Source: a virus. Taken from it: a DNA stretch of 50,859 nt. This document shows positions 4,293 to 49,305 of the stretch, piece after piece. A model generated the notes under the pieces. The model did no database searches. It was not told where the DNA came from and worked only from the letters and a program-made list of their open reading frames with translations. How positions within the stretch are numbered: the stretch's first letter is position 1; each line of letters begins with the position of its first letter. The stretch is taken from positions 1 to 50,859 of the IMG/VR virus record IMGVR_UViG_3300049259_000143; one strand, 5' to 3'. A program made the position numbers and the translations under genes.

Positions 4293-4667
4293 ATGTTCGA
4301 CTACAGGTGCCGGTCCGGGTGGGGAAGACCCGGACCGGCACCAATGTCCCTGTGGCCAGCGGCGAGGACGCGCGTGGTGTTCTACTTCCGCCCCGAGATC
4401 CGCATCCGCGACACCGGCCCCGGTATGTGCGCCTACCGGCACGTCCTCATCCCCGGCCGGGTCAGCGTCCACTTCCTGCACTGCTATTGCCCCGCACGCA
4501 ACCCCATCACCGGAGGGCACAGCGCCTGGCGCTGTCAGGACTGCCACGACGAGGGCCGGGGCGCCGAAGCCTGGCTCTACCCCGCCGGCCACCACGAGTG
4601 CGGCACTGAGTGGATGAACCCGTGGGCCACGGAGCCACGGCCGCTCCACCGCGTCGAGGGTGGTTAA
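4293..4667 (+). CDS. Cys/His-rich hypothetical protein
   Basis: Up to 124 residues from the ATG at 4293; a start at 4344 (MSLWPAARTRVVFYF) is possible, since neither has a clear ribosome-binding site. The second half carries CYCPARNPITGG, CQDCHDEG and HHECG, which together suggest a zinc-binding fold. It overlaps the end of the convergent integrase gene by four bases. No family recognised. Confidence 0.5.
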   Translation: MFDYRCRSGWGRPGPAPMSLWPAARTRVVFYFRPEIRIRDTGPGMCAYRHVLIPGRVSVHFLHCYCPARNPITGGHSAWRCQDCHDEGRGAEAWLYPAGHHECGTEWMNPWATEPRPLHRVEGG

Positions 4668-5908
4668 CCAGGGTGGTGCAGCTTGTCCAGGTCGGCGGCG
4701 GCCTGCGCGTTCGCCATGCCACGGCCCATGTACCGGTTCTGGGTCATCGACGGGTTCGCGTGGCCGAGCTGGTCGGCGATCTGGCGGGCGGTGTGCCCGG
4801 CCGCGTCGAGCGCGGTCGCGACCGTTTTGCGCCCCACGTGCGTCGTGAACGACGGATACCCGGCCCTCCGGCGCATGTCCCGAACTTGCTTCTGCACACC
4901 CGACGGGTCCCGGTAGCCGAGCGTCCGGCTCGGGAAAACGGCCTCGTCGTCTGTCGCCTCGAGCGGCTTCCGCACCAGCAGCAGCGTGTACAGGTAGTGC
5001 GGGAGGCCGACGACACGTTTCGCGGAGAACGTCTTCCCCGAGTTGCGGACCAGGCCGGATACCTGGGCGAGTTCCGGGCGGTTCTTCTTCCGCACGCGCA
5101 CGATGTTGCCGTTGATCCATACGCTCATCGGGGGGATGACCTGGCCGTCGATGGTGATCGGCTCGTCGGCGAGGTTGAGGTCGCACCACCGCAGTCCGAG
5201 CGCCTCACCGATGCGCACGCCGGTGCCGAACAGGAACCGCACCAGGTCCGGCAGGTCCGCGCGCGCCGCCTTCTTGTCGGCGTCGAGATTCGTCAGGAAG
5301 TCCGACAGCTGGTCGGTTGAGAACGCCTTCGGCTGCCTGCTGTCGCCCTTGATTGGTGACAGGTCCCGCACCGGGTTGTGGGCGAAGATTTCGTGGCGTG
5401 TGGCGAGCCCCATCACCCCGGACAGCACGTTGCGGATCGTGCGCCGGGTACCCGCTGACGCGCCGTTGTTTTTCAGGTCGGTCATGAACTTGTCGAGCCT
5501 GCCGACGGTGCACTCGCGGACCAGTAGTTCCCCGAGCGCGGGTTCGACATGTGTCCGCAGCTTGCCGGTGTAGGCGTCGAAGGTGGTAGCGCTGACCTCG
5601 GTCTTGACATGCTCCGTGTAGATCTTGATGGCTTCGCTCATGCGCGACCCGGAGGTGAGCGAGGTCTTGCGGCCGGACATCTCGGCGAGGTCGCCACGCA
5701 GCTGGTTTATCGCCTTGGTTTCGCTGGTCCCGGAGCGTTCGACCTGCCGGGTGTGGCCGTCGTAGCCGCGGTAGCTGGCCATGGCCCGCCAGGACTTCGC
5801 GCGGGTACCTTTGGGCAGCTTGCCTTTCGGGACCCAGCGGCCGTCGACGAGTCCGTAGGTGCGGATCTGTCCCCATGAGCCGAGGGGGAGTGGTTTGCGG
5901 GGCATCAC
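4664..5908 (-). CDS. int: tyrosine recombinase (phage integrase)
   Basis: A 414-residue site-specific recombinase that would join the element to the host chromosome. The N-terminal 60 residues form an arm-binding, AP2-like part (GYDGHTRQVERSG), residues about 85-185 the SAM-like core-binding domain, and residues about 195-410 the catalytic domain. The catalytic residues are visible: R232 in GTGVRIGEALGLRW, H357 and R360 in HVGRK, H383 in QLGH, and the nucleophile Y393 in NRYMG. Length is normal for actinophage and AICE integrases. GTG 5908 or ATG 5905 can start it. It faces left, convergent with 4293-4667. Confidence 0.95.
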   Translation of the reverse strand: MMPRKPLPLGSWGQIRTYGLVDGRWVPKGKLPKGTRAKSWRAMASYRGYDGHTRQVERSGTSETKAINQLRGDLAEMSGRKTSLTSGSRMSEAIKIYTEHVKTEVSATTFDAYTGKLRTHVEPALGELLVRECTVGRLDKFMTDLKNNGASAGTRRTIRNVLSGVMGLATRHEIFAHNPVRDLSPIKGDSRQPKAFSTDQLSDFLTNLDADKKAARADLPDLVRFLFGTGVRIGEALGLRWCDLNLADEPITIDGQVIPPMSVWINGNIVRVRKKNRPELAQVSGLVRNSGKTFSAKRVVGLPHYLYTLLLVRKPLEATDDEAVFPSRTLGYRDPSGVQKQVRDMRRRAGYPSFTTHVGRKTVATALDAAGHTARQIADQLGHANPSMTQNRYMGRGMANAQAAADLDKLHHPG

Positions 5909-12033: not shown

Positions 12034-12963
12034 TCAGTTGCCGGGTACGGGAAGCGCGGGAGCCGGGTAGGTGGCGACCACGCACTGGTCGGTGTCGGCG
12101 CTTCCGCCATCGGCGAGCCGGATCCGCAGTTGGGTGAACTGGCCGCCGAGCGGGCACAGGACTTCGGGGTGCGCCTGGACGTAGGCGACGAACGCAGCCT
12201 GAATCTGGTCCGCGGTCGGCGGGTCGCCCTTCTCGCCTTTATCTCCCGTGTCGCCCTTCTCGCCTGGCGCGCCCGGTTGCCCCGATGCGCCAGGCTGACC
12301 CGAGGGGCCCGGCTGACCGTTCTGACCTGGCTGCCCAGGCTGGCCGGCAGGTGGCGGGTTCGTGGCGAGGTAGCCGGCCAAGACCTGCGCGATCTGCGAC
12401 GACGACGGCTGACCTGGGGTGATGGGGTTCGCCGCCACGTAGTCGGCGATGGATTTCCCGAGCTGGGCGGCGGTGGGCGCCGTGCTGGTGCCGGCGGGCA
12501 GGTTCGCGAGGACTTTCGCCGCGGCGGCGGCGGCGATGACGTCGGTGTCGGGTGCCTGACCGGGCGTGGGGATCGGCACCGGAGCCAGCCCGCGGGCCTC
12601 GAGTTGTTTGTTCGCGGCCTCGCCCTGGGTTTTGTAGTTGTCGGCCTGTTGCCGCAGCTCGACCACGGCGGCGTCGGTTGCGGCTTGCCGGGCGTCGGTG
12701 GCGGTTTGCCGCCCGAACAGGTACAGCCCTCCGGCCAGCATTGCGGTGGCCGTGAGTATCGAGACCACTGCGGTGGCGACGACGATCCAGGGCCACCGGC
12801 GGTTCAGTTCGTGCTTCGCGGCGGTGCGGGCGGCTTCCGGTGCGGCGTCGGCGGCGTCATGGACTGCGTTGCTGACTTTCGCCAGTGCGGCGTGGATCTG
12901 GTCGGTCGGATCGTCGTGTTCTGGTGGTTCGTCGCGCGGCGCGGGGCTCGGCGGATCAGGCAC
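12034..12963 (-). CDS. membrane protein with collagen-like repeats
   Basis: A 309-residue protein. After a charged N-terminus, one membrane helix (WPWIVVATAVVSILTATAML, about residues 57-76) is followed by a long extracytoplasmic part: a coiled segment, then about 14 Gly-X-Y triplets (GQPGQPGQNGQPGPSGQPGA ... GEKGDTGDKGEKG, about residues 205-246), then a small C-terminal domain with two cysteines. It overlaps the preceding gene by eight bases. The position in the lysis cassette suggests a spanin-like or wall-contact role, but no family is recognised. Collagen repeats also occur in phage fibres. Confidence 0.65.
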   Translation of the reverse strand: MPDPPSPAPRDEPPEHDDPTDQIHAALAKVSNAVHDAADAAPEAARTAAKHELNRRWPWIVVATAVVSILTATAMLAGGLYLFGRQTATDARQAATDAAVVELRQQADNYKTQGEAANKQLEARGLAPVPIPTPGQAPDTDVIAAAAAAKVLANLPAGTSTAPTAAQLGKSIADYVAANPITPGQPSSSQIAQVLAGYLATNPPPAGQPGQPGQNGQPGPSGQPGASGQPGAPGEKGDTGDKGEKGDPPTADQIQAAFVAYVQAHPEVLCPLGGQFTQLRIRLADGGSADTDQCVVATYPAPALPVPGN

Positions 12964-17408: not shown

Positions 17409-18644
17409 TCAGCCCCCGATCATCGTGATGTTGATCTGCCCGGGTGTCGGTAACGGTACCGCCCCGGGGAGCTGCACATCCCCCGACGCTTGCGTCGCCG
17501 ACCCGAGCCCGATGGACAGGCCCGCGACGTAGGCGACACCGGGCACCGCATTGATCACCGACGCCACATCCAGATAGCGCACCGTGGGACTGTTGATCCA
17601 CCTGCCGGTCCACATGCCGCTGGAGTCCTGCGTGTCGCCCCAGTGCGCCGGCGACAGAAACGCGGACACCGCCGACGACACCGCCGCGGACACCGTGTTC
17701 AGCACCGCACCTGAGGTGGCGGCGACAGTCGCGGTGACCGTCACCGTGCTGGTCGTCGGTGAGATGACGTTGACGACGAAGTTGACCTCACGCATCGCCT
17801 GCAGCGTGGCCGCCAGCGACGACTGGGCCGCCGAGCCGAGCGGGCTACCGCTGGTGTCGACCGCGGCCACCGTGACCATGCGGGCGTTTCCGCTGGACCC
17901 GTCCGCCGGGTTGTACCCGTTCAACGCGGTCGCCCTGGCCACCCCGATCTGCGCTGCGGCGAGCGCCGCGAAATCAGCCGGCAGGATCGGCCGCGGCGTC
18001 AGCAGCTTCAGCTGGGACCGCAGCCGCGCCAGATACGCGGCCGTGGTTTCCGGGTCGGCGCCCCCCGAGCTCGCGGCCGTGCTGACCACGGAGGTCACCC
18101 ACGCCAGGTTGGAGAACAACTGCCAGGTGCCGGGCCCCAGCCCGTTGCTGTCCGCGCCGGGTGTGACCGCCGTCAACGGCACCGCACCCGACGCGGTGGA
18201 GGAGGAGCCCGGGGGGATCACCACGTCCGCGGTGGTGCGGAACAGGGTGCTGCTGCTGGCGCTGGTGGACCAGCCGACGATCGTGCCGGCCGGGATGGTG
18301 TGGCCCTGTGTGTCGGTCACTGTCCACGTTGAGGGCGCGGTCGCCGACGCACCGGCGATGGGCGGCAAGTTCAGCAGCGACTGCCCGAAGTACTGGAAGA
18401 TCGCTTCGCTGGCCTGGCCGGCGACCTGTGCGGTGGTGGCGGCCATCGCGGCGAGCGCCTGCACCAGCCACACCTCGAGGTGCCCGTCGCGGGGCACCCA
18501 GCCGGGCAAATTCGCGGCCAGGGTGGTCAACGCGTCGGTGGCGAGGGTGTTGGCGTCGGTGGTGACCGGCACCGCCAGATATCCGGTCGGTGTGACGGTC
18601 ACCGGCTGCACGCCGAACCCGCTGGAATCGGATGGTGTGGTCAC
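17409..18644 (-). CDS. baseplate J-like protein (gpJ)
   Basis: A 411-residue baseplate wedge protein of the P2 gpJ/T4 gp6 family. Family marks are the N-terminal helix with LVQALAAMAATTAQVAGQAS, the GYLAVPVTTDANT start, LGPGTWQLFSNLAWVTSVVS, and the DPETTAAYLARLRSQLKLLT segment followed by PADFAALAAA. It forms the periphery of the contractile tail baseplate and would contact gp25 and gpI, encoded on either side. Its ATG overlaps the stop of the gp25-like gene. Confidence 0.9.
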   Translation of the reverse strand: MTTPSDSSGFGVQPVTVTPTGYLAVPVTTDANTLATDALTTLAANLPGWVPRDGHLEVWLVQALAAMAATTAQVAGQASEAIFQYFGQSLLNLPPIAGASATAPSTWTVTDTQGHTIPAGTIVGWSTSASSSTLFRTTADVVIPPGSSSTASGAVPLTAVTPGADSNGLGPGTWQLFSNLAWVTSVVSTAASSGGADPETTAAYLARLRSQLKLLTPRPILPADFAALAAAQIGVARATALNGYNPADGSSGNARMVTVAAVDTSGSPLGSAAQSSLAATLQAMREVNFVVNVISPTTSTVTVTATVAATSGAVLNTVSAAVSSAVSAFLSPAHWGDTQDSSGMWTGRWINSPTVRYLDVASVINAVPGVAYVAGLSIGLGSATQASGDVQLPGAVPLPTPGQINITMIGG

Positions 18645-18946
18645 GGCAGCTCCGCGCGCAGTTGCGCGTGCCCGTCGCCGCGGATGTCCAGACGGACCCG
18701 CGCCGACGCGGCACGCGGTTCGAACGTGCCGATGGCCTGCTGCACCGCCGGGATGTCGGCCCCAGCGGTGAACGTCACGTCCGGCACCCCGTAGGCGGGA
18801 TATTCGGTGCGGCTACCGGCGGGGGTGGCGAGCAGCACCGTCACGCACTGGCTGATTTCGCCGCGGCTGTCCTGTTCGAGGGTGGCGATGGTGCCGTCTT
18901 TGCCGAGGGTGAACGGCCACGCGAAATGCGGCAACATCAGCGTCAC
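18641..18946 (-). CDS. gp25/gpW-like baseplate protein
   Basis: A 101-residue protein of the T4 gp25/P2 gpW family that links sheath to baseplate. The typical order is present: HFAWPFTLGKDG near the N-terminus, the SQCVTVLLATPAGSRTEYPA block (family R-x2-x2-P-x-Y-G pattern, here EYPAYGVPD), and a C-terminal beta hairpin. Length is normal. It lies between the spike and gpJ, the standard order in contractile tails. Confidence 0.9.
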   Translation of the reverse strand: MTLMLPHFAWPFTLGKDGTIATLEQDSRGEISQCVTVLLATPAGSRTEYPAYGVPDVTFTAGADIPAVQQAIGTFEPRAASARVRLDIRGDGHAQLRAELP

Positions 18947-18950
18947 CCCG

Positions 18951-20210
18951 TTAGCTCGCCGAGTAGTAGAGGACGCACCAGCAGAGCCGGTCGCCGGTGG
19001 TGCACACCGGTTCGGTCAGTGCCTTCATGGTCATGGATTTGGTGAACGGCACCCCGCCCCATTTGGACCACAGGTCGGTGGCCATGCCGACGCAGTTCGG
19101 CTGGTTCGACGGTTTGTCGGTTCCGACGTAGCTGTGGAACGAGGTGTTGTAGTCCTTCCACCCGTTGAAGTACCAGGCGGAGTCGTACCAGTCCTCGGTG
19201 CCGGTGGCCTGGATGGACGGGTCGGTTTCGCCGTCGATGTAGAACGCGAAATTCCGTTCCATCCAGGAGTCAGAGTTGCCGTCGGAGGGGCTCGGGGTGA
19301 TCACCTTGGCGTCGACCCCGCCGACCTGCGAGTGGTAGACGACGGTACCGGGTCCGCCGGACGTGCTCGCCAGGGTGATCACGTCGCCGGGCTGCCGGGT
19401 CACCACCTGGTCCTTGAACCGGGCACCCGCGCAGCGCAGCCGTTGTCCGTTCGCCTGATCCGCCGCAGTGAGCTCGTAGGTGGCCATGCTGTAGATCCAG
19501 CCGCGCAGCGTGTTCGGGTTGTAGTGGGCGATGCGGATGCGGGACCCGAAAGGGAGCGGGAACGTGATCAGGAACCCGGTGTTGTAGTTCGCCGAGTTGA
19601 TTTCGGCGTGCACGTGGGTGCAGGAATGCGACCCGGAGGCGGCCCCAGCACCCCAGTGTGTGGCGAGCAGGGTGCCGTAGTCGATGTCGATCGCCGGGGT
19701 GGACGCGCCGTCGTAGTAGACGCGGAGCCGGCCGTCGAGTGAGGTTCCGTCGGCGCCGAGCGCCATCCACAGCGACACCACGGTCCCGGGGCCGGTCTGG
19801 TCCAGCAGGGTTTGCTCGCTGTTCGGTTGTACCGCCACGTTCTCGACCTTGTTGAGGTGGAGCTTGGTGGTGCGTAGCGAGCCGAGTGCGTTGACCAACG
19901 GTGTACCTCCCTGGGTGGCTGGCGGGTCTGGTGTCCAGCCGAAGAAATTGGTGACGTAGGGCTTGTCGAGTCCGCCGCCGACGAAGGTCACGAGACAGCG
20001 GGTGCCGGGCGGGGGGACCGCGCCGGGTTGCGGCTCCTGGTAGGGCGCCGGCCCGAATTTGAAGTCGGGGCTGTAGGCGGGGACGGTGAACTGGACGCCG
20101 GAGGTGTCGGCGGTGACGACGATGCCTTCCTGTGGGCCGTCCATCGCGGGCACGGTGGCCCGCTGGCGGGTCAGTGCGTAGCCGATCGCGGCGAGGTTCG
20201 GGTCCGCCAC
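18951..20210 (-). CDS. baseplate spike (gpV-like) fused to GH172/DUF2961 domain
   Basis: A 419-residue fusion. Residues 1-95 look like a gpV/VgrG-type OB domain (DGPQEGIVVTADTSGVQFTV, PPGTRCLVTFVGGGLDKPYV). Residues about 115-419 are a DUF2961 (GH172) double jelly roll: SLWMALGADG, LRVYYDGASTPAIDIDYGTL, FYIDGETDPSIQATGTEDWY. Two glutamates, E318 and E339 (in GTED), have the 21-residue spacing I recall for the catalytic pair of family GH172. GH172 enzymes act on fructofuranosides and on D-arabinofuranosides of mycobacterial arabinan. Beside the hub and gp25 genes, this is the tail tip, so cell-wall arabinan is the likely target. Fusion and families are seen; substrate is inference. Confidence 0.8.
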   Translation of the reverse strand: MADPNLAAIGYALTRQRATVPAMDGPQEGIVVTADTSGVQFTVPAYSPDFKFGPAPYQEPQPGAVPPPGTRCLVTFVGGGLDKPYVTNFFGWTPDPPATQGGTPLVNALGSLRTTKLHLNKVENVAVQPNSEQTLLDQTGPGTVVSLWMALGADGTSLDGRLRVYYDGASTPAIDIDYGTLLATHWGAGAASGSHSCTHVHAEINSANYNTGFLITFPLPFGSRIRIAHYNPNTLRGWIYSMATYELTAADQANGQRLRCAGARFKDQVVTRQPGDVITLASTSGGPGTVVYHSQVGGVDAKVITPSPSDGNSDSWMERNFAFYIDGETDPSIQATGTEDWYDSAWYFNGWKDYNTSFHSYVGTDKPSNQPNCVGMATDLWSKWGGVPFTKSMTMKALTEPVCTTGDRLCWCVLYYSAS

Positions 20211-20222
20211 CGTGCCCCCCTT

Positions 20223-21062
20223 TTAGCTGGTGTTTTGGGGTTCGGGGAGGGTGGGTTGCGGCGCCACCAGCTGGATGGTGCAGGCGGTGTGGAACAGGTC
20301 CCGGTCGATGCGGGCGACCATCCACGTCCGGGATGCGGGTCCGAGCCCGGTGACTTGGATGATGGCGCCGAGGTCGCCGTGCCAGATGGGTGCGTAGGTG
20401 TAGACGGTGGTTTCGGCGAGGGGTTTGCCGATGTCCCAGTCGGTGATGTCGATGAGGTCGACGCCTCCGGTGTATTCGGCGATGGTCATGGTGGGTGCCG
20501 CGGTGAACCACCAGTCGTCCGGCCCGAACAGGACGGACGTGCCGTCGCTGTAGCAGCGGTAGCCGACGTCTTGCGCGAGCCGGGTGAGGCAGGTCCAGGT
20601 GTCTTCTTGCGGGTCTTGTGTGGTGCCGCGCGCCAAGGGTTCTTTCGCGAGCGGGCCGGGCGGTGACCCGATGAACGGCACCCCGGCTGTCCGGCACAGT
20701 TGCTGGGCGAACTGCACCCGGGTCACCACACCGGGTGCGGCGGCCAGCGGCCCTTTGATGGTGCGGAGCCGGGCGATGATCGAGTCCTCGAACGTGAGGA
20801 TGGTCTGGTTGGCGCGTTTCCCGACCTTCACCAGCCAGAACGAGATGGGGCCGACCGCCAGGCGGGATTGCCGGTTCGCGACGGACGAGTTGAGCACGGA
20901 CCGGTCGCTGTCCTCCACTGTGACCGTGACGGTCGCCGCCTGGGTGATGTCCCGCGAGATCGTGCACCCGGTGGTGCGGGAGTCGATCGGCACCGAGCCG
21001 TCGAGTTGAAGGTTCGACGCGAAATATCCGGCCAGGGCGGCGTTGTAGCTGTCGAACGCCAC
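20223..21062 (-). CDS. baseplate hub protein (gpD/gp27-like)
   Basis: A 279-residue protein in the place of the hub between the LysM protein and the spike. It begins with a beta barrel (MAFDSYNAALAGYFASNLQL), then DITQAATVTVTVEDSDRSVL and the second-half block TWTCLTRLAQDVGYRCYSDG followed by VLFGPDD, which is typical of XkdQ/late control protein D members (a domain that reads the ligand groove, then LFG-D). It would trimerise around the spike. Confidence 0.8.
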   Translation of the reverse strand: MAFDSYNAALAGYFASNLQLDGSVPIDSRTTGCTISRDITQAATVTVTVEDSDRSVLNSSVANRQSRLAVGPISFWLVKVGKRANQTILTFEDSIIARLRTIKGPLAAAPGVVTRVQFAQQLCRTAGVPFIGSPPGPLAKEPLARGTTQDPQEDTWTCLTRLAQDVGYRCYSDGTSVLFGPDDWWFTAAPTMTIAEYTGGVDLIDITDWDIGKPLAETTVYTYAPIWHGDLGAIIQVTGLGPASRTWMVARIDRDLFHTACTIQLVAPQPTLPEPQNTS

Positions 21063-21069
21063 AGGTCAC

Positions 21070-21804
21070 CTACCACGGCAGCTGGAGGGTTTGCCCTGCG
21101 GTGATAGCCGCCGGGTCCCGGACGTTGTTCATTTGCGCGATCACCACCCACAACCTCAGGTCCCCGAGCTGCTGGGCGGCGATGCTGGTGAGGTCGTCGC
21201 CGTCGCGGATCACGTAGGTGCGCCACGACCCGGGCGGGTATGCCTGGATCTGTGCCAGCAGATCCGGCGGGAGAGAGGCCAGACCGGGCAGGAGCGCGGC
21301 GGCGGCCTGGTTGGTGGCGGTGATCTGCTGTTGCGCCAGTTCGACCGGCGACCCGTAGGTCGTGTCGATGCGGGAGGCTTCCAGCAGTGTCAGCGTCACC
21401 TCCTGCTGGACACGCACTTGGTCGAGGCGGCGTTGCGCCGCTTTCCACGTCACCCCGAACAGGACCCATTCGGGGATGCGGGCTGTGTCGACCGGGCCGG
21501 TGACCCGCAGCCGGGCCGGTTCCCGCTTCCCCGGCACCTTGTACCGCCAGCCGTGCACGGCATCGCAGTCGGCTTCCACGGAGTCCTGCGCGTCGGCCCG
21601 GTCCAGCATCAGCGGCAGGTCGAGCTGGGTGAGCGCGATCGATGTGAACTCCAGGAAGGGTTTGCTGGTGGGCCGGTCGATCACTGTCCACGAGTAGCCG
21701 CCGGAGGTGTAGACGCTGGTGGTGGCGTCGCCGAGGAGCCCGAATCCGATGGGGCGGGAGCCGGGCGGGTCGAGCGGTGTGATCCACACGTCCGGTACCG
21801 GCAT
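21070..21804 (-). CDS. LysM-domain baseplate protein (gp53/XkdP-like)
   Basis: A 244-residue protein. The C-terminal 50 residues are a LysM domain (RTYVIRDGDDLTSIAAQQLG ... LQLPW), as in XkdP, T4 gp53 and related baseplate proteins that join the tape measure/tube end to the hub. The N-terminal 180 residues are beta-rich and have no other motif I recognise. Operon order (tape measure, LysM protein, hub, spike) is the usual one for contractile tails. Confidence 0.85.
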   Translation of the reverse strand: MPVPDVWITPLDPPGSRPIGFGLLGDATTSVYTSGGYSWTVIDRPTSKPFLEFTSIALTQLDLPLMLDRADAQDSVEADCDAVHGWRYKVPGKREPARLRVTGPVDTARIPEWVLFGVTWKAAQRRLDQVRVQQEVTLTLLEASRIDTTYGSPVELAQQQITATNQAAAALLPGLASLPPDLLAQIQAYPPGSWRTYVIRDGDDLTSIAAQQLGDLRLWVVIAQMNNVRDPAAITAGQTLQLPW

Positions 21805-21821: not shown

Positions 21822-24800
21822 TTACATGCGTGCGGTGGCGTCGGAGATCGCGTGGCGGATCTCGTCGTAGGTGCGGCGCGAGTCACCGGATTCGGTGACA
21901 TACACCGGGCCTAGGTTGATCGTTGTCGTACCGCCGATGCTGATCGTCCGCACATCACCGGCAGCCGTGGTCGCGCTGCCGCCGATGGTGGGCATCACCA
22001 GTCCGGGGGCGTCCGGGATGTGGATTTCCGGGCCCGCCTCACCCACCATGTACGGCTGCCCCGCCGCGACGGGACCACCCAGCTGGCGGGTGGGGATGCC
22101 CAGCCGGGCCGCCAACCCGGCCGCGTTCACGCCCTGGCCGATGACACCACCGGAGGCGTAGCCGTGGCTGTGCTGCGGGCCGGGGGAGAACCATCCGGGG
22201 CCGTAGCTGGACATCGCGTGCCGGGCACCGGCGATGATGTTGTCGACCGGGTTGAAGATATTTCCGTGGCCCGGCAGGGCGTTCGACGCGAACGTTGTCG
22301 GAATGACCTGCATGATGCCGCGGGCTTCGTTGCCGCCCGAGTTGACGTCGTGGATTTGCTGCACGATGCCCGGGTTACCACTGGATTCGGTCATGATCTG
22401 CTGGTAGATCCCGGCGGCGTAGCTCGGTGGGTATCCGAGGATGCTGAGCGCCTGCATGATCCAGTCGTTGATCTGGCCCGGTGGGGCCGCACCGCCGGGC
22501 CCGCCCCCAGCGGGCGGCGCGGTGTTCGCCACCAGCCAGTCCAGGGCCTTCGCCCGCCACGTGTTGATCGTGGCGGGCACGAGACCGGCGAAGCTGTTTT
22601 CCGGTACGGGCAGCACGGGCCACACGCTTTCCACGACGCGCCGCAGACCTTCCTTGGTGACGCGGCCGATCCAGTCCACGGCACCCGATACGGCGTTGCC
22701 GATGGAGGAGGCGACGTTGGTGATGCCGTGCCAGATTCCGCCGAGAATCCCGCCGCCGTCGAACCCGGGCACCCCCCGGCCAGGTACACCCCCTGCTTCG
22801 TAGCGTGCGACGCCACCAGCGTGGAACCCGGGCGCGAGGTCACCCGCGAGCCGGTGGAACAGGCTCATCGCGTTGCCGCGGTGCGCCGGGTCGGTGGGGA
22901 TCACATACTCGGGGTGTGCAGGGTTTCCTTCGCCGACGATGGCGCGGGGCCCGTTGGTGATGAACCCGGCCCCGACCGGGCCGAACAGGTCACCGAGTGC
23001 GCCGCCTTCGGCCATGAAGCGGAGCGGGATCACGCCGCCCTCAGCCATCTCGGGCACGTGGGGGATGTTGAGGTGGATGTTGAACCCGATCGCCCCGGCG
23101 ACCTTGTTCACGACGTCGAGGAAGCCGTTCACGATGTCGATCACGATGTTGGCGCCGTCGGCGAAAATCTTTTTCATGTCGTGCCACAGGCCGGTGAACA
23201 CGTCTTTCGTGCCTTGCCACGCGTCGTTCCAGATTTTCTGGATTCCGTGCCACAGGTCGGTGACGATGCGGGTCGCGGCGTCGAGGAGGTCGTGCAGCGT
23301 GCGGGTGGTGAAGTCCTTGATGTCCTGCCAGGCGCGTTGCCAGTGGCCGGTGATGATGTCGAGGAACACCGTGATGATGCCCATGATGATGTCGCGGACC
23401 CATTTGAAGATCCCCACCACGATGTCCCACGCGACCTTGACGACGGTCACGATGATGTCGAACGCGACTTTGATGATGGTCCACAGCACGGTCCACGTCG
23501 CGCGGACGATCGCCATGATGATGTCGAGGGCCAGCTTGATGCCGTCCTTGATCATGTTCCAGCCCGCGACGATCGACGCGATCAGCGGCGCCATCATGGT
23601 GCGGATCGCGGCCCACACAACCCGCGCGACCTGGGCGATTTCGTCCCAGTGCGACCGGATCGCGTCCACCATCGGCCGGAAAAACGCGACGATCCCGTTG
23701 ATGGCACCGTGCACGAACGGGCCCAGCCACGACCACACCCACTCGGCGGCGGCCTTGATCCCGTCCCACGCCGCCTTACCTGCGGCGACAACCGCATGGA
23801 AGGCGCCGGTCACGATGTTGCGGAACAGCGTCGAGTGGTTGTAGGCGTAGATCAGGACCGCGACGAGCGCGACGATCGCCGTGACCACCAGCCCGATCGG
23901 GCTCGCCGCCATCGCGGCGTCGGTGGCCCACAGCTCCCCGGTGAGCAGCAGCTGCACGCCACGCCAGATCGACACCGCCGCCGCCACCGCCTTGGTGGTG
24001 GCGGCGTAGGTCGCGTACAGGCCGACGAGGATGCCCACCACGACCAGCGAGTCCCGCATCGCGCCGGTGTGCTGGCTGGCGAAACCCGCGACGTCCCGCA
24101 CCGCACCCGCAACCTGGTTCAGGGTCGGCAGGAACGTGGCGCCCAGCGTGATCGCGGTCGTTTTGATCGACGCGACCATCTGGTCCCACTGGAACGCCGA
24201 CGTTTTCTGCACCTCGGCGAACCCTGCGACGTGGCCCTGTGCGTCGGCGGTCGACGCGGAGATCTGGCGCACCGCGCCCGCGGTGTAGTCAGCGTTCTGC
24301 CCACCGATCTGCAGGGCCACGTTCATGCCGGTCTGGTCACCCATCGCGGCCTTCAACATCGCCGAATAGGTGGTCCACAACTCGCCCGCCGAGTGGGTTT
24401 CGTTGCCGATCTGGTGCGTGGACTTCGCGAGTGTCGCGAACGCCATCGCCTGCCCCTGCGCCTCCACCGGGAGCCCCTTGGCGGCCTTCACGTATTCGGC
24501 CCACGAGGTGGAGCCGTCCAGGGCGCGGCTCGCGACATCCCGCACCGCCGGGTCCAGCTTCTTCAACGCATCCGACAGGTTGATCACCACACGCTGCGCG
24601 TCCGGCCCCATGTGCTGCTGGATCGCGGTCGACAACTCGTTGACGACCCCCGTGAGCCCCTTCTGCGACAGGTCGCCCTGAACCTGCTGCACCGTGAACC
24701 CGAGCTCGGCGAGCGCCTTCGTCTGCGGCGCCGTCACAGCCTGCAAATGCCCGATAGCGTGCGCCAGATTCTCCGACGCCTGCTGGGCGGAGGTGCCGTG

Positions 24801-25811
24801 CACCGTCATCGACGCCAGCGACCCGAGCACATCCTCGAGCGACACGTGCGCCGCCGACGCCGCGGGCAGCACCGAATGCAGCGCCCCGGACAGATCCTGG
24901 AAGGTGACCTTGCCGGTGGAGGTGGCGCCGATGAGTTTCGACATCACCTCCGCCGAGGCTTGGGTGACCTGGGCGGCGGACGCGGCGTGCGGGTAGTAGT
25001 CCCGCATCGCGCTGGACAGGGCGTTGGCGACGGTGGTGGCGTCGGCGCCCTCCGCGCGGGCACCCTCCTCCGCGGCTTTCAGCACCGCGAGACCGGCCTG
25101 CGCGTGGTATCCGGCGGACTCGATGGTGTACATCGCGTCCGACATGCTTTTCATGTTCGTGACCCCGACCTGGGGGGCGAGGGCCAGCATCCCCTGCCGC
25201 ACGGTGTCCAGCGCGCCGACCGCTTCACCGCCGGACGTCACGAGCCTGGTCGTGTCAGCCTCGAAATCGACGGCCATCTTGGTGGATGCGGCGGCGGCGG
25301 TGCCCGCGACCACCGCGGCACCGAGCAGCGCGGTTTTCATGGACGCCGCGGACGACTCGGCGGCGGTCTTCTGCCGTTCCCGCGCCGCGACTTCCTTGTC
25401 GGCGGAGGTGACGGCCGCGTCCGCCGACGTTTTCGCCGACACCACCTCGGTTTCGGCCGCCGCCTTCGCCGTGGCGGCGGCCTCGGTGCGGGCCCTGGCC
25501 AATGTGACCGTGCGGCGGGTCGCGGCATCATCCACCGCGGCGTTCTCCGACTCCGCCCGCCCCTGGGCACGCACAGCGGCCTCATACTCCCGGCTCGCAG
25601 CCTGCGACGTGCGGGTCGCTTCGGCGAGCCGGGCCTTCGCCTCACTCGCCGCCCGCGCCGTGGCGGACGTTTCCTGCTCCGCCGCGGCACCAGCCCGCAC
25701 CGACCGTTCCAGACCGGATTGCGCGGCCTCCGCCTCCCGTAGCCCGGCGACGTAGGCTTCTTTCCCGGCGAGCACCAGCCTCGCCCCGACCTCCGACAAC
25801 CCGACCGCCAC
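21822..25811 (-). CDS. tail tape measure protein with lytic transglycosylase domain
   Basis: A 1329-residue protein from a GTG at 25811, by far the longest gene. The first 160 residues are an Ala-rich coiled coil. Residues about 160-600 carry the TP901-type tape measure core (MAVDFEADTTRLVTSGGEAV, EDVLGSLASMTVHGTSAQQA). Several hydrophobic segments lie between about 590 and 870, among them LVVVGILVGLYATYAA and a series of W-x-x-I repeats. The C-terminal domain is an SLT transglycosylase: IYQQIMTESSGNPGIVQ with catalytic E1142, then ARGIMQVIPTTF. It sets tail length and, once ejected, opens peptidoglycan. Confidence 0.95.
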   Translation of the reverse strand: MAVGLSEVGARLVLAGKEAYVAGLREAEAAQSGLERSVRAGAAAEQETSATARAASEAKARLAEATRTSQAASREYEAAVRAQGRAESENAAVDDAATRRTVTLARARTEAAATAKAAAETEVVSAKTSADAAVTSADKEVAARERQKTAAESSAASMKTALLGAAVVAGTAAAASTKMAVDFEADTTRLVTSGGEAVGALDTVRQGMLALAPQVGVTNMKSMSDAMYTIESAGYHAQAGLAVLKAAEEGARAEGADATTVANALSSAMRDYYPHAASAAQVTQASAEVMSKLIGATSTGKVTFQDLSGALHSVLPAASAAHVSLEDVLGSLASMTVHGTSAQQASENLAHAIGHLQAVTAPQTKALAELGFTVQQVQGDLSQKGLTGVVNELSTAIQQHMGPDAQRVVINLSDALKKLDPAVRDVASRALDGSTSWAEYVKAAKGLPVEAQGQAMAFATLAKSTHQIGNETHSAGELWTTYSAMLKAAMGDQTGMNVALQIGGQNADYTAGAVRQISASTADAQGHVAGFAEVQKTSAFQWDQMVASIKTTAITLGATFLPTLNQVAGAVRDVAGFASQHTGAMRDSLVVVGILVGLYATYAATTKAVAAAVSIWRGVQLLLTGELWATDAAMAASPIGLVVTAIVALVAVLIYAYNHSTLFRNIVTGAFHAVVAAGKAAWDGIKAAAEWVWSWLGPFVHGAINGIVAFFRPMVDAIRSHWDEIAQVARVVWAAIRTMMAPLIASIVAGWNMIKDGIKLALDIIMAIVRATWTVLWTIIKVAFDIIVTVVKVAWDIVVGIFKWVRDIIMGIITVFLDIITGHWQRAWQDIKDFTTRTLHDLLDAATRIVTDLWHGIQKIWNDAWQGTKDVFTGLWHDMKKIFADGANIVIDIVNGFLDVVNKVAGAIGFNIHLNIPHVPEMAEGGVIPLRFMAEGGALGDLFGPVGAGFITNGPRAIVGEGNPAHPEYVIPTDPAHRGNAMSLFHRLAGDLAPGFHAGGVARYEAGGVPGRGVPGFDGGGILGGIWHGITNVASSIGNAVSGAVDWIGRVTKEGLRRVVESVWPVLPVPENSFAGLVPATINTWRAKALDWLVANTAPPAGGGPGGAAPPGQINDWIMQALSILGYPPSYAAGIYQQIMTESSGNPGIVQQIHDVNSGGNEARGIMQVIPTTFASNALPGHGNIFNPVDNIIAGARHAMSSYGPGWFSPGPQHSHGYASGGVIGQGVNAAGLAARLGIPTRQLGGPVAAGQPYMVGEAGPEIHIPDAPGLVMPTIGGSATTAAGDVRTISIGGTTTINLGPVYVTESGDSRRTYDEIRHAISDATARM

Positions 25812-27129: not shown

Positions 27130-28611
27130 TTAGCTCGTTCCACCGGCGACGGGCTGACCCAGCGGCACCGACTGCAGCACGATCGACACGAACTCGGCGG
27201 TGCCGGACGGTTTGATTTGGATCACCGCGTTCGCGTACCCGGCGGCGATGGTGGTGGGGGTGTTGACCTGCGGGGACGTGTTCACCGAGAACGCGTCCGA
27301 CGGGTTTGCCCCCCACAGCGCCCCGATCTGCCAGTAGTCCGTCAAGATCCCGCGCAGCGCCCCGTTGAACGCCGACAGGGTTTTGCCGCCGGCGTCGAGT
27401 TGGCCCCATTCGATCGCGGCCCCGGCTTGCTGGGCACGGTCTTGGATGGCCATCCGCAGCCGGGACCGGTTGAGCGCCACCCACTGCGGATCTGGGGACA
27501 GGCTCCGGAAGCCGTAGAGCTGCACCACCCCGGCGAGCGCCCGGATCAGGGAGACCCCGGCGGTGTTCAGCGTGGCCCGGTCGGTGTCCACATAGGTTTG
27601 GGTGACCCCGACACCGATCGCGGACTTCCCCGCCGGCCCGGCCGCGGCCGTCGCGGGGTTGCCGGTCTGGTCGGCTGCGCAACACCGGGCCGCGGCGAGC
27701 GCCGAGGGGGGCACGACCCGGTTGGGGGCGGGGATCGGGCCGCCGGTCGGGAGGCCGGGGATCGTGACCCACGGGGCCAGCAGTGTGGCGCGGGACCCGT
27801 CCAGGCCGCCGGTGACGGTGTTGGTGGCGGCGGTGGTGAGTGTGGTCGCGGTCGGGGTGTCGGGTGCGTCCAGCAGCGCGATCCGGTTGTTGATGGTGGC
27901 GTGGGTGACCAGGGCTTGGTGGGCGGGGTCGGTGGTGCGGCCGGGTGCCGATACCTGACCTGGCCCCATGTCCTGTGTGAACGCGGCGAGGGCGGTGGTC
28001 CACGCGGCTTCGGTGATGGCCGCGTTGTCGTCCATGCCGCCGGCGAGGGGGGTGGCGGGCAGGACGGCGGGGTTGTTGTTCGGCGCCGTCGTCGACGACC
28101 CGGCGTTGCTGATCGTGACGTAGGTGCTGGTCGACGACCAGTTCACCGCGTCCGCCGGGCTGGACAACACGGGGGACGTTTCCACCACGGTCCCGGACTG
28201 GGAGATCACCATCTGGTACTGGCCCGCGCCCGGGGAGGTGACCTGCACGGTGAGCGTGTTGCCCCATGCGCCTGGCCCGTTCGCGTTCACCGTGATCGTG
28301 GTGGCCGGGGTGGCGGCGCCGTCCTTCACCGCGAGCGTGGCGGGCGCGGCGGCCGGGCCGACGACCCGGGACACGTATGCCTGCACCCCGCCGTCACGAA
28401 AGTACTGATCGAGCGCGTCGTACAGCGCGCCGGCGGGGATCCGGTTCCCGAGCAGCCGCTGGTAGTCCGACATGGACCCGACGGTGAGGGCCTGGCCGAC
28501 GGGTCCGCGTTCGGTGACGCCGGTGACGAACCAGGCGCCGGTGCGGGGGCTGGTGGTGGAGGGGGGCGGGGCGGTCGCGGACGCGAACGTGACCCCGGGC
28601 GCGGCGATCAT
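27130..28611 (-). CDS. tail sheath protein
   Basis: A 493-residue contractile tail sheath. The N-terminus (APGVTFASATAPPPSTTSPR) includes the GPVGQALTVGSMSDYQRLLG motif that starts sheath domains. A variable central domain (about 90-330) follows, and the C-terminal domain has the diagnostic RSLSPDPQWVALNRSRLRMA and IQDRAQQAGAAIEWGQLDAG. The presence of this gene makes the phage a myovirus. It overlaps the preceding gene by ATGA. Confidence 0.95.
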   Translation of the reverse strand: MIAAPGVTFASATAPPPSTTSPRTGAWFVTGVTERGPVGQALTVGSMSDYQRLLGNRIPAGALYDALDQYFRDGGVQAYVSRVVGPAAAPATLAVKDGAATPATTITVNANGPGAWGNTLTVQVTSPGAGQYQMVISQSGTVVETSPVLSSPADAVNWSSTSTYVTISNAGSSTTAPNNNPAVLPATPLAGGMDDNAAITEAAWTTALAAFTQDMGPGQVSAPGRTTDPAHQALVTHATINNRIALLDAPDTPTATTLTTAATNTVTGGLDGSRATLLAPWVTIPGLPTGGPIPAPNRVVPPSALAAARCCAADQTGNPATAAAGPAGKSAIGVGVTQTYVDTDRATLNTAGVSLIRALAGVVQLYGFRSLSPDPQWVALNRSRLRMAIQDRAQQAGAAIEWGQLDAGGKTLSAFNGALRGILTDYWQIGALWGANPSDAFSVNTSPQVNTPTTIAAGYANAVIQIKPSGTAEFVSIVLQSVPLGQPVAGGTS

Positions 28612-34612: not shown

Positions 34613-35971
34613 TTATCCCCACGGCACGAGCATGCAGCGGCATCCGCCGTGCTCCACCGCGGGCACCGTCTCCACCGTGTAGGGGCTGCCGGCCTCTTTG
34701 TCGAGGCACAGCCGGCAGGGGCCGCCGACGGTGCGCCAGTCCAGCAGCCCGATCCCGAGTTCCCGGTACACGGCGACCGAACCGTCCAGGAATGCCTGCG
34801 ACAGCTGCACGTCGAGGTAGTACTGGGCGCCCGCACCGGCCCGGATGATGTCGGCGATGTCGGCGTCGGACAGTGACGCCCACGCGTCGCCGATCGCCGC
34901 GGCGGCGAGGTCCCCGGCCAGCCCGCTGATCTGTTCCTCGACCCACGGGCCGGGGCTGATCGGTGACCGCACCCCCGGCGTCGCCGCGGCCGGGAGCACA
35001 CCGTGGGACAGGATGTGTCCCGCCGCTGCCGCGCCGGCGACGGTGCCGGTGGTGTGCGCGTCGACGGCGGTGTCCCGCCACTGCGGGAGGACCCCGGTGG
35101 CGGTGGCTTGGGCGAGGAGCGCGGTGGTGGCCTGGTCCCGGCGCACCGGGCGTGCCGCGTCCGGCTGGATCGCAGCCCGCAGCGTCGGCGGGTGGAGGCG
35201 GGACGCCAACAGCGCCAGCACGGCGGCGAGCGCGGCGGCGCTGTCCCGGTGTGCCCGGTCCCGCTCGGCCGAGGTGGCGGCGAGGAGCCCGGTGGTGGCG
35301 CCGTCCGCGACAACATCCGCGTCGGCCGGCGGGTCGTCTTGCTCGAGCGCGGCGTGCTGCACGGCCCGCACTCGGGTCTGGGCGAGTTCCGTCACCTGGT
35401 GCCCGGTGGAGGCGTAACCGGCGACCCACGCGTCCCGCACCGCATTAGCGGCCGGGGCCGCGCCGTTCAGGGGCAGTTCGGTTCGCTGGTCGGCGAGGAA
35501 CAGGCCAACCCGGTCGAATGTGATCGGCCCGACCTCGCTCAGATCCGCGGCGGTCAGTCCGTATCCGGCGGTCATGTGGGGTGTGAACGGTTCGTGCTGG
35601 CCTGGATGCGCGCCGCCGAGGAGGGCAGCGCACGTGGTGGTGAGCTGCCGCTGCACAGGGCCTATCCGGTCGCTGTCGCCGACCAGGTACACCGCGCACG
35701 GGTCGCGGCCGTCGTGCCCGTCGGGGTTGAACGTGGCATGCGCGAACACCCGCGCCCGCAGCGGCCCGCCCAGGTCGGACACCGCTTGTTCGGCGGCGTT
35801 GCGGGCGAACTGCTGTTGTTGTGGGTCCCACCCGGTGACGTCGTCACCCAGGTATTGGAGGGTGACGTGCATCTGGTCGGGGGGTTCGGCGTTGTCGTGG
35901 TCGAGGGCGAAGCGGGCGACGTCGCCGGTGTGGGGGAGGAGCGCGATCATGCCGCCGGTGTGTGCCGCCAC
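34613..35971 (-). CDS. 2H phosphoesterase fused to MuF-like minor head protein
   Basis: A 452-residue fusion (GTG 35971, or ATG 35950 giving MIALLPHTGDV). Residues about 8-165 are a 2H phosphoesterase (LigT/2'-5' RNA ligase-like) with both H-x-T motifs: H35-V-T37 in MHVTLQYLG and H132-M-T134 in PHMTAGYG. The rest is a helical MuF/SPP1 gp7-like head protein that ends with GGPCRLCLDKEAGSPYTVET and HGGCRCMLVPWG. MuF proteins sit in or under the portal and some enter the cell with DNA. 2H enzymes include tRNA-end and cyclic-nucleotide phosphodiesterases such as the anti-CBASS protein Acb1. Both domains are seen; a virion-delivered anti-defence role is inference. Confidence 0.85.
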   Translation of the reverse strand: MAAHTGGMIALLPHTGDVARFALDHDNAEPPDQMHVTLQYLGDDVTGWDPQQQQFARNAAEQAVSDLGGPLRARVFAHATFNPDGHDGRDPCAVYLVGDSDRIGPVQRQLTTTCAALLGGAHPGQHEPFTPHMTAGYGLTAADLSEVGPITFDRVGLFLADQRTELPLNGAAPAANAVRDAWVAGYASTGHQVTELAQTRVRAVQHAALEQDDPPADADVVADGATTGLLAATSAERDRAHRDSAAALAAVLALLASRLHPPTLRAAIQPDAARPVRRDQATTALLAQATATGVLPQWRDTAVDAHTTGTVAGAAAAGHILSHGVLPAAATPGVRSPISPGPWVEEQISGLAGDLAAAAIGDAWASLSDADIADIIRAGAGAQYYLDVQLSQAFLDGSVAVYRELGIGLLDWRTVGGPCRLCLDKEAGSPYTVETVPAVEHGGCRCMLVPWG

Positions 35972-42519: not shown

Positions 42520-42911
42520 GATGGTGCGTCCCTCGTGAGTTTCGTGAAATTCCGGGTTTTTCCGACCGGGCGGAATCCGGCCTGCTGGTAGGGCGGGGCA
42601 TGCTCGTGCCGGACGACGGCGTGCAGCGCCCGCTCGCCGAAACGCGCGACCGCGGCGTTGACCAGCTCCGGTGCGGTGTTCTCGTGGCCGGGCACGGTGT
42701 AGAGGCTTTCCACGCTCAGCCGCCCACGGGCGGCGACGGCGATAAAACCGGTGACGGTGTCCGCGTCGAGGGCCACGAGCCAGGTTTTCGCGTCGTCGTC
42801 CCAGATGGTGTCGCCGACGTGGCGGACGACCTCACGGCGGGACAGGAACGGGCCGAGCGTGGGATAGAACCGCGGATCGGTGTTGGTCAGGGCGAGCACG
42901 GCGTCAGACAC
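42516..42911 (-). CDS. GNAT-fold acetyltransferase-like protein
   Basis: A 131-residue protein with the GNAT order: WLVALDADTVTGFIAVAARG (beta-4), SVESLYTVPGHENTAPELVN (acceptor strand and pyrophosphate-binding turn, somewhat altered), then LHAVVRHEHAPPYQQAGFRP (end of fold with the YxxxGF motif). Sandwiched between PAPS-reductase-like and ParB-like genes with 4- to 8-base overlaps, it likely acts with them. Mom, the phage Mu DNA-modifying enzyme, has a related fold, but this protein is shorter. Confidence 0.75.
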   Translation of the reverse strand: MSDAVLALTNTDPRFYPTLGPFLSRREVVRHVGDTIWDDDAKTWLVALDADTVTGFIAVAARGRLSVESLYTVPGHENTAPELVNAAVARFGERALHAVVRHEHAPPYQQAGFRPVGKTRNFTKLTRDAPS

Positions 42912-44097
42912 GGTAGCCCCACTCCTGTCGTTTGATCCGCAGCTTTTTCCGGTACTGCGCGTAGGAACCGTGCGAGTGGGGCGGGGAGAAGGACAGCCCT
43001 TTGCACCAGTAGTCGTAGGTCAGCAGCACCTTGCAGATCCGCTTCCACGACGGGCGCATCTTGTCGCTGGCCGAACCGTCGTCCGGGATCACGCCGCCGG
43101 GATAACCCCGCACGTCATACCAGGCCAGGAACACCGAGATCTTGTCCCGGAAGTGCTCGGCGACTTCGGCGGGCATGCTCGCCAGCAGTCGCTGCGCGTA
43201 GTCCTCCCAGGTGATGTCGTCGGGTTTGGTGATCGTGATCCTGCCGAGGCGGGCACCGAAGTTCGCGCCCTGGACGCGGGCGACCACCCGCGACCAGGTG
43301 CGGGGCTCGATGAGGTGGTACAGCCACAGGCCCTTGCGCTGGTCGTCGCCGTAGGGCTGGCAGATACGGGCCTGGTGGATCGACAGGCCCGCTTGGTGCA
43401 TCCGGTCGTAGAGCACGTTGTACGGGGTTTTCGTTTTGCCGTAGAACCGCCAGATGTCGGCGGTGCGCCAGTCATAGACCGGGTAGGCGTTGTAGAGCGC
43501 CCCGCCGAGCCAGGTGGTCCACTGGTTGCCCTCGTGGGTCTGTTTCTTCCTCGAGGCGATGGTGCGGTAGCGGTTGAGCGATTCGTCCGAGCGGATCGCG
43601 ACCAGGCACGCGGTCAGCCGGCCGCCGTTCTGGCGGGCGTACCAGTGCCCGAACTCGGGGGTGAAGTCTTCGAACTCCATCCCCTCCCGGAAAAACGGGA
43701 AAAACCCGGGATCGGTGATCGCGCCGTCTGGTTGGGGGCGCACCCACGCGTCCCGCTGCTCGGGGTCCCAGCAACGCCACTGCGGCTGGAACTGGCTGAC
43801 CGCGTTGCGCAGCGACAGCGGCAGCGCGACCCAGTACACGTCGAGCACGTCGGCGTGGCGGGCCAGCATGGTCTGCAGGTAGTCGACGGTGTGCGCGTAC
43901 TGGGCTTCCAGGTCGACGATCAGGCACCCGATCCGCCGCCCGCGGCGCCGGGCTTCGGTGGCCGCCATTTCCAGCAGCACGCCGGAATCTTTTCCACCGG
44001 AGAAGCTCACGTAGATGTTGGGGAAATCGGTGAAGACGGTCCTCAGCCGTCGCTGCGCGGCGGTATGAACATCAATTCCGAGCCCTCTCTTAGCCAT
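42904..44097 (-). CDS. PAPS reductase/PP-loop ATPase family protein (IbrA-like, DUF3440)
   Basis: A 397-residue protein with the PP-loop SFSGGKDSGVLLEM (residues 31-44), which binds ATP in the adenine-nucleotide alpha-hydrolase superfamily. The family string continues with VDLEAQYAHTVDYLQTMLAR and WRTADIWRFYGKTKTPYN, and a C-terminal part (PPHSHGSYAQYRKKLRIKRQ) typical of IbrA/DUF3440 members. Relatives include DndC of DNA phosphorothioation and proteins of BREX type 4. The ATG at 44097 has GGAGGAGGTGGAGG upstream and lies 55 bases inside the preceding gene. Confidence 0.85.
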   Translation of the reverse strand: MAKRGLGIDVHTAAQRRLRTVFTDFPNIYVSFSGGKDSGVLLEMAATEARRRGRRIGCLIVDLEAQYAHTVDYLQTMLARHADVLDVYWVALPLSLRNAVSQFQPQWRCWDPEQRDAWVRPQPDGAITDPGFFPFFREGMEFEDFTPEFGHWYARQNGGRLTACLVAIRSDESLNRYRTIASRKKQTHEGNQWTTWLGGALYNAYPVYDWRTADIWRFYGKTKTPYNVLYDRMHQAGLSIHQARICQPYGDDQRKGLWLYHLIEPRTWSRVVARVQGANFGARLGRITITKPDDITWEDYAQRLLASMPAEVAEHFRDKISVFLAWYDVRGYPGGVIPDDGSASDKMRPSWKRICKVLLTYDYWCKGLSFSPPHSHGSYAQYRKKLRIKRQEWGYRV

Positions 44098-48915: not shown

Positions 48916-49101
48916 ATGTCTAGGTGGTACACGGTGCGTTCCCTGGCCGAACTGCGATCCATGTCTGGCTCGGCGTCTTACTTCGATTGGCTCTACGCCT
49001 TGGGGGTGGCTGCGCGCCAGTTGGATATCGATCCGGGAGGGATTTTCGACCAGAAGACCGCTCGGGAACTGATCGATTGGGTTATCGCCAACGGTCGATA
49101 A
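48916..49101 (+). CDS. small protein, 61 aa, paralogue A
   Basis: ATG at 48916 after AAGGAGC. MSRWYTVRSLAELRSMSGSA ... YFDWLYALGVAARQLDIDPG ... DQKTARELIDWV is about half identical to the product of the next gene, so the two arose by tandem duplication. Soluble helical protein, no known domain. It may act as a homo- or heterodimer. Confidence 0.65.
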   Translation: MSRWYTVRSLAELRSMSGSASYFDWLYALGVAARQLDIDPGGIFDQKTARELIDWVIANGR

Positions 49102-49125
49102 CGGAGCACGGAAAGGAGCATCCGC

Positions 49126-49305
49126 ATGTCTGGGAAGTACACGGTGTACTCCGTGGCCGCCGCGCAATCCCTGCTCGACTCGACGCCTTACGACGACTGG
49201 CTCTACTGCCTGCGGATAGCTGCGCAGAAGTTGGGTGTCGACCCGAACAAAGCATTCGACAAGAAGACCGCCCGCCAGTTGGTCAAGTGGGTCAACAACA
49301 GCTAA
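49126..49305 (+). CDS. small protein, 59 aa, paralogue B
   Basis: ATG at 49126 after GAAAGGAGC. MSGKYTVYSVAAAQSLLDST ... YDDWLYCLRIAAQKLGVDPN ... DKKTARQLVKWV aligns without gaps to the preceding gene product; shared are YTV, the DWLY helix, DP and the KTAR helix. Divergence between the copies shows the duplication is not recent. Function unknown. Confidence 0.65.
   Translation: MSGKYTVYSVAAAQSLLDSTPYDDWLYCLRIAAQKLGVDPNKAFDKKTARQLVKWVNNS

Follow-up and report, generated by a model that had tools for sequence, protein, structure and literature searches.

The stretch of DNA analyzed here, referred to as the window, is a virus record of 50,859 bases with a GC content of 68.8%. An integrase gene at 4664-5908 and a gene for a DUF5753 regulator are present in it and therefore the phage is probably temperate. 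The gene order in the tail region is sheath, tube, tape measure, LysM protein, hub, a fused gene, gp25, and gpJ, and from the presence of the sheath gene (27130..28611, phrog_23, E=6e-36) it follows that the tail is contractile. These genes, from sheath to gpJ, were located on the minus strand as follows. The tape measure protein (21822..25811, PF10145 E=8e-21) carries a transglycosylase (SLT) domain (PF01464 E=1e-7) that is predicted to be the tail's own peptidoglycan hydrolase; the LysM tail protein (21070..21804, PF01476 E=7e-6) lies upstream of the baseplate hub of 279 amino acids (20223..21062), which is without the C-terminal hydrolase-like extension borne by the hubs of related phages; and the gp25 baseplate wedge (18641..18946, PF04965 E=4e-7) is followed by the baseplate J protein, gpJ (17409..18644, PF04865 E=2e-18). 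Elsewhere in the window we observed a large head-region protein with a 2'-5' RNA ligase (2H phosphoesterase) domain (34613-35971), whose kin are found in the prophages G061 and G166, a gene with PAPS reductase and DUF3440 domains in the non-structural arm (42904-44097), a tandem pair of small paralogues of 61 and 59 amino acids (48916-49305), and a collagen-like repeat in a fibre-like protein (12034-12963).

Between the hub and gp25 of this sheath-bearing phage, the position by which a spike gene is recognized, there is a single ORF with a GTG start (18951..20210, minus strand) that encodes 419 amino acids and joins an OB mini-spike to a GH172 furanosidase domain. A sequence-only reading had described such a gene here and it is real as described, including the LRVYYDG, FYIDGE, and GTEDWYDSAWYF blocks, all of which are in the protein. 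That reading was also right that the N-terminus is OB-like but the extents of the parts had to be corrected: residues 1-92 (19935..20210, minus strand) form an OB domain of the gpV/gp5/VgrG type, as judged from a fold model, Foldseek, and alignment to a relative's spike, residues 93-104 (19899..19934, minus strand) are a linker, TPDPPATQGGTP, that joins two genes that are separate in relatives, and residues 105-419 (18954..19898, minus strand) are a GH172 (DUF2961) double-jelly-roll domain by Pfam and Foldseek. The GC3 (0.89) and the codon-position GC of the fused ORF are similar to those of the neighbouring genes.

When the OB part was modelled alone with three distant OB-only relatives the mean pLDDT was 64 (model meddb1e2ef3a0); in the AlphaFold model of the full 419-residue protein it was below 50 for this part. 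In a separate Foldseek search of the PDB with the model of residues 1-92, 25 of the 27 best matches by E-value were contractile-injection spikes or baseplate spike proteins, including Mu gp45, the R2 pyocin spike, VgrG, P2 gpV, and the Afp/PVC spikes. The E-values of these matches ranged from 1e-3 to 8e-2, with none at or below 0.001, and most had a probability of 1.0. Each match is weak by itself and it is the consistency of the list that suggests for residues 1-92 an OB fold of the kind found in the spikes of contractile tails. A sequence search of the PDB with the OB part gave chance matches only, mainly antibodies, and viral scans with the OB domain alone or the hub alone found nothing close; a hub alignment used as query reached four viral loci. 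No beta-helix with an apex metal site was found in the protein, where the GH172 domain comes directly after the OB domain, and the OB-only relatives are also without a beta-helix.

The closest whole-phage relative found is the G485 prophage, in a genome that GTDB puts in the family of Pseudonocardia terrae. It has the same gene order as the window, and the identities are 50% for the terminase, 53% for the portal, 55% for the major capsid protein, 52% for the sheath, 53% for the tube, 46% for the hub, and 44% for J. Its spike, unlike that of the window, has no GH172 domain: it is an OB-only protein of 96 amino acids that over its entire length matches residues 1-92 of the window protein and stops at the equivalent of W92, with 29% identity and a score 12.8 s.d. 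above shuffles (z=12.8). Four contractile relatives that are more distant (GMA6, Gray, the G301 prophage, and the locus L139) likewise encode an OB-only protein between the hub and gp25. Their hubs are extended at the C-terminus by a part that is NlpC/P60 by Pfam in GMA6 and is of similar sequence in the other three. Compared with these phages, the tail-tip wall hydrolase of the window appears to have moved from the hub to the spike and to have changed in kind.

The GH172 part was identified by several searches. Pfam DUF2961 (PF11175) matches residues 161-373 with E=3.7e-23 and a score of 82.7 bits, where the curated cut-off is 27, and a sequence search of the PDB gave ExoMA1 (8ic8) as the best match (E=1.4e-11) followed by alphaFFase1. 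In the AlphaFold model of the protein, which was built from 47 sequences, the core strands of the GH172 part are well predicted and several loops are poor. With this model the top seven PDB matches in Foldseek were all GH172/DUF2961 proteins (among them 8ah3, 8ic8, 4kq7, and 7v1v) with E<=4e-12, and these were followed by the STIV capsid protein and, lower down, by other double-jelly-roll proteins including the PM2 capsid protein. The predicted fold is thus the double jelly roll of GH172/DUF2961, and the assignment of the C-terminal region to GH172 in the sequence-only reading is borne out by both profile and fold. Its description as full-length DUF2961 holds in that the domain is complete for its subfamily; beyond the last strand, though, the window protein and its close relatives have only 1-3 residues, where most cellular GH172 proteins have about 20 or more. 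In the hexameric alphaFFase1 and BACUNI_00161 this C-terminal tail holds the helix that pairs trimers, and its absence is in keeping with a single trimer at a needle's tip.

The pair E318 and E339, proposed from the sequence as the two catalytic glutamates, holds up on alignment to alphaFFase1 (7v1v), the founding GH172 enzyme. E318 (19257..19259, minus strand) is the equivalent of the acid/base E270 and E339 (19194..19196, minus strand) that of the nucleophile E291, and their spacing agrees with the 21-22 residues that separate the catalytic glutamates in GH172. E318, E339, D340, D326, and W346 are invariant over the 47 homologues; D340 and W346 correspond to D292 and W298 of alphaFFase1. All 47 have Tyr or Phe at the position of Y240, the counterpart of Y187', which in alphaFFase1 comes from the adjacent protomer. 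It has been shown that the activity of the alphaFFase1 mutants E270A, E291Q, and D292A/N is about 2% or less whereas Y187F is tolerated (PMC8605356). Catalysis has therefore very likely been kept by the GH172 domain. It could be argued from the capsid-protein fold, that is from the Foldseek matches to the STIV and PM2 capsid proteins, that the domain is catalytically dead and that the double-jelly-roll tip does no more than cap the structure or bind a receptor, but with E318, E339, D340, and W346 all kept and Y240 at the Y187' position we regard this as very improbable.

What the enzyme would cleave is less plain from its active site. ExoMA1, a GH172 exo-alpha-D-arabinofuranosidase of Microbacterium arabinogalactanolyticum, resembles the window protein in that it is the best PDB sequence match, is near the top of the fold matches, and has both catalytic glutamates and the double jelly roll. 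It differs in that the identity is only about 27%, it is a free dodecamer without an OB domain, and the sequence around the acid/base is WWGEGE in ExoMA1 and SWMERN in the window. There are also differences from alphaFFase1, a fructofuranosidase with a hexamer-making C-terminal helix. The position after W346 is Tyr347 in the window; in alphaFFase1 it is Gly299, which admits fructofuranose, and in ExoMA1 it is Asn253, which blocks fructose. The equivalent of Trp267 of alphaFFase1 is kept in 40 of the 47 relatives but is replaced by Ser (Ser315) in the window subfamily, and because of this change the substrate may differ. From these residues the substrate is more likely to be an aldofuranoside than a fructoside.

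The closest relatives of the GH172 part, with 60-75% identity, are all separate proteins. Two are from phages (G001, locus L002, and G002, locus L007), have 70-75% identity, and are unfused. The G002 enzyme (IMGVR_UViG_3300036799_000099) is a standalone GH172 that runs across the contig ends and is 75% identical over the C-terminal half; its gene is flanked by primase and recombination genes, and the phage is of siphophage type, with a Dit protein and a 127-base terminal repeat. GH172 proteins of the phage subfamily were also found in 8 of 390 Pseudonocardiaceae genomes, where they are chromosomal and unfused, and the five Pseudonocardia copies in the tree are of 305 amino acids and start at the equivalent of window L105. 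In the tree these host copies fall among the phage ones with moderate support (85/84), and a long branch separates the window subfamily from other GH172 sequences. Four Pseudonocardia loci (L020, L021, L134, and L135) have a 305-residue GH172 of the phage subfamily with no evident signal peptide, and their contexts vary, being by glnA, a GH38 mannosidase, or a transposase-like gene. Since relatives have an OB-only spike and a separate GH172, the gene of the window is mosaic in origin, an in-frame union of two complete genes, one for the enzyme and one for the mini-spike. No other OB-GH172 fusion was found in 50,697 phage records, in the IMG/VR loci found, or in the 390 Pseudonocardiaceae genomes, which agrees with the earlier statement that no phage spike with this domain had been described.

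The junction itself calls for caution. A change of a single base, CAG101 to TAG or GGA102 to TGA, gives a stop in the linker, so that the open fusion depends on few codons, and this is the main caution about the word fusion. The junction also rests on one contig, as no second copy of it was found in the IMG/VR viral contigs, from which near-identical records may have been withheld. One alternative is that a sequence error or a dead-end mutation has produced the fusion and that the real phages have two adjacent genes whose stop between residues 93 and 104 has been lost or misread. Either of the two single-base changes would restore two complete genes, the second with an ideal Shine-Dalgarno sequence, and the OB and GH172 parts are apart in all relatives. 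The frame is open with uniform codon usage, however, and it is unlikely that a mistake would fall at exactly this place and also keep the two parts in phase. We consider the explanation by error or dead-end mutation improbable, and even if it were correct a GH172 gene would still stand between the hub and gp25, an order that is striking without any fusion.

The same few bases bring up a second product. The linker contains a Shine-Dalgarno-like GGAGGT (19905..19910, minus strand) 6 nucleotides before an in-frame TTG (L105; 19896..19898, minus strand), and a free GH172 enzyme of 315 amino acids may be made from this TTG as well as the fusion. Such an enzyme might act at lysis or might assemble with fused chains on the tip. 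The signal is located about where the unfused homologues begin, and of the 693 internal start codons that lie in frame within the long genes of the window genome only 6 (0.9%) have GGAGG at such spacing. In G001, moreover, the free enzyme is encoded by a gene that overlaps one for a small membrane protein, with a peptidase-like gene close by, and these neighbours are presumed lysis genes. TTG is a weak start codon, though, and the signal is possibly a remnant of the ancestral separate gene. Production of both proteins is compatible with a spike-borne enzyme and we take it to be a serious possibility, although on balance it is not what we expect.

As to the host, the evidence is indirect and of moderate strength: relatives of the major capsid protein were found in 3 of 390 Pseudonocardiaceae genomes and in 1 of 390 taken from the class as a whole. 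Since Pseudonocardiaceae genomes hold both the nearest whole-phage relative and the closest enzymes, the host is probably a soil actinobacterium of this family, related to Pseudonocardia. Arabinogalactan has been reported only from Corynebacteriales and from some Pseudonocardiales and Actinopolysporales, and the Pseudonocardiales that make it are without mycolic acids (PMC6194230). Thus the sequence-only reading, in which the tail tip brings an arabinanase against an arabinogalactan wall, stands in that the wall argument fits, and has to be amended in that the nearest phage and enzymes point to Pseudonocardiaceae, not to mycobacteria. Arabinan is a plausible target of the predicted GH172, but the term arabinanase overstates the case because the GH172 enzymes characterized so far are exo-acting and ExoMA1 alone is inactive on intact LAM (PMC10509167). 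With exo-action the enzyme may do no more than trim, without opening a way through the wall, and trimming of a receptor is as possible as drilling.

This leads to the question whether the tail-tip GH172 acts on some other furanosyl polymer, such as a capsule, a galactofuranan, or another wall glycan, which serves as receptor and is trimmed and not drilled through. The subfamily-specific residues Ser315, Arg319, and Tyr347 and the long branch to other GH172 sequences are in keeping with this, and so is HRTV-29, a Halorubrum tailed virus. Its gp60, the only annotated DUF2961 protein of an isolate virus found, is like the window protein in having DUF2961 with both glutamates and in being encoded among tail genes; it is unlike it in having 26% identity, no recognized OB spike domain, and an archaeal host. 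DUF2961 in a haloarchaeal tailed virus means that the domain alone does not imply an arabinogalactan wall, and, together with the G002 gene between replication genes, that the family has other uses in phages. The gp60 gene (L003:11734-12837) was seen to lie between a tail completion gene and a tail tube gene. Against another polymer are the closest cellular homologues, which are in Pseudonocardiaceae, of an arabinogalactan-making order, and the alpha-D-Araf activity reported for most GH172 enzymes assayed (PMC10115798). We therefore treat another polymer as possible but rather doubtful.

The spikes of the gp5/gpV/VgrG type are trimers. GH172 proteins are likewise trimeric or are assembled from several trimers (PMC10115798, PMC8812541, PMC10509167), with the active site between protomers (PMC8812541, PMC10509167), and this makes a threefold spike a natural carrier for such an enzyme. 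The explanation that we favor, and hold to be fairly probable, is that in this temperate contractile phage of a probable Pseudonocardiaceae host a complete GH172 furanosidase gene has been joined in frame to that of an OB-only central spike and that the resulting tip enzyme acts on the wall. The OB domain would trimerize on the hub, the GH172 trimer that it bears would form the extreme tip where other spikes have a beta-helix needle, and contraction of the sheath would drive this tip into the wall. There it would cleave furanosyl residues, most likely terminal alpha-D-arabinofuranosyl groups of the arabinogalactan of the host, and the tape-measure transglycosylase would open the peptidoglycan. 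Against this explanation are G001 and G002, where the enzyme is free and encoded in non-spike places, and HRTV-29, where DUF2961 is found in a virus of an archaeal host. A wider proposal, that the double-jelly-roll trimer is an enzymatic needle tip replacing the beta-helix and that the same gene also yields free enzyme from the internal start, is put forward only tentatively.

Enzyme-bearing spikes are already known. T4 gp5, P2 gpV, and VgrG are like the window protein in having an OB spike below the hub and in fold, and T4 gp5 also bears an enzyme, a lysozyme; the T4 and P2 spikes, however, end in a beta-helix needle, whereas in the window it is a GH172 domain that is C-terminal. Bendigovirus GMA6 and its kin, which are Gordonia myophages, resemble the window in the arrangement of a related hub, an OB-only protein, and gp25. 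GMA6 has a known phage arabinan enzyme, GH183/DUF4185 (PMC10115798), but this is in the endolysin rather than in the spike, and its hub has NlpC/P60; GH183/DUF4185 (PF13810) had no match in the spike-GH172 protein. What is new beside these and the DUF2961 of HRTV-29 is the OB-GH172 spike. Phages of arabinogalactan-walled actinobacteria must cross a layer that peptidoglycan hydrolases leave untouched, and where GMA6 has its arabinan enzyme in the endolysin the window protein is a candidate for one that is brought by the tail tip. DUF2961 has been described as not associated with proviruses and has been tied to capsid ancestry as a proposed cellular relative of PRD1-type capsomers (PMC8812541); contrary to the former, it is placed here among phage virion genes. 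A trimeric enzyme on a trimeric spike would be an expressible and solvable target, and enzymes that cut D-arabinan are wanted as tools for mycobacterial wall chemistry.

Among other DUF2961 matches, three records named "Bacteriophage sp." (MT835583, MT836379, and MT838830) were set aside from the phage set; MT835583 carries SusD and GH3 genes and resembles a piece of a Bacteroidota chromosome. In another viral contig (L101:6516-8285, IMGVR_UViG_3300050020_000163) a gene beside head genes encodes a C-terminal DUF2961 (Pfam E=5.7e-15) with both glutamates, preceded by an N-terminal part of about 270 amino acids with a possible signal peptide, and this is perhaps an independent DUF2961 fusion.
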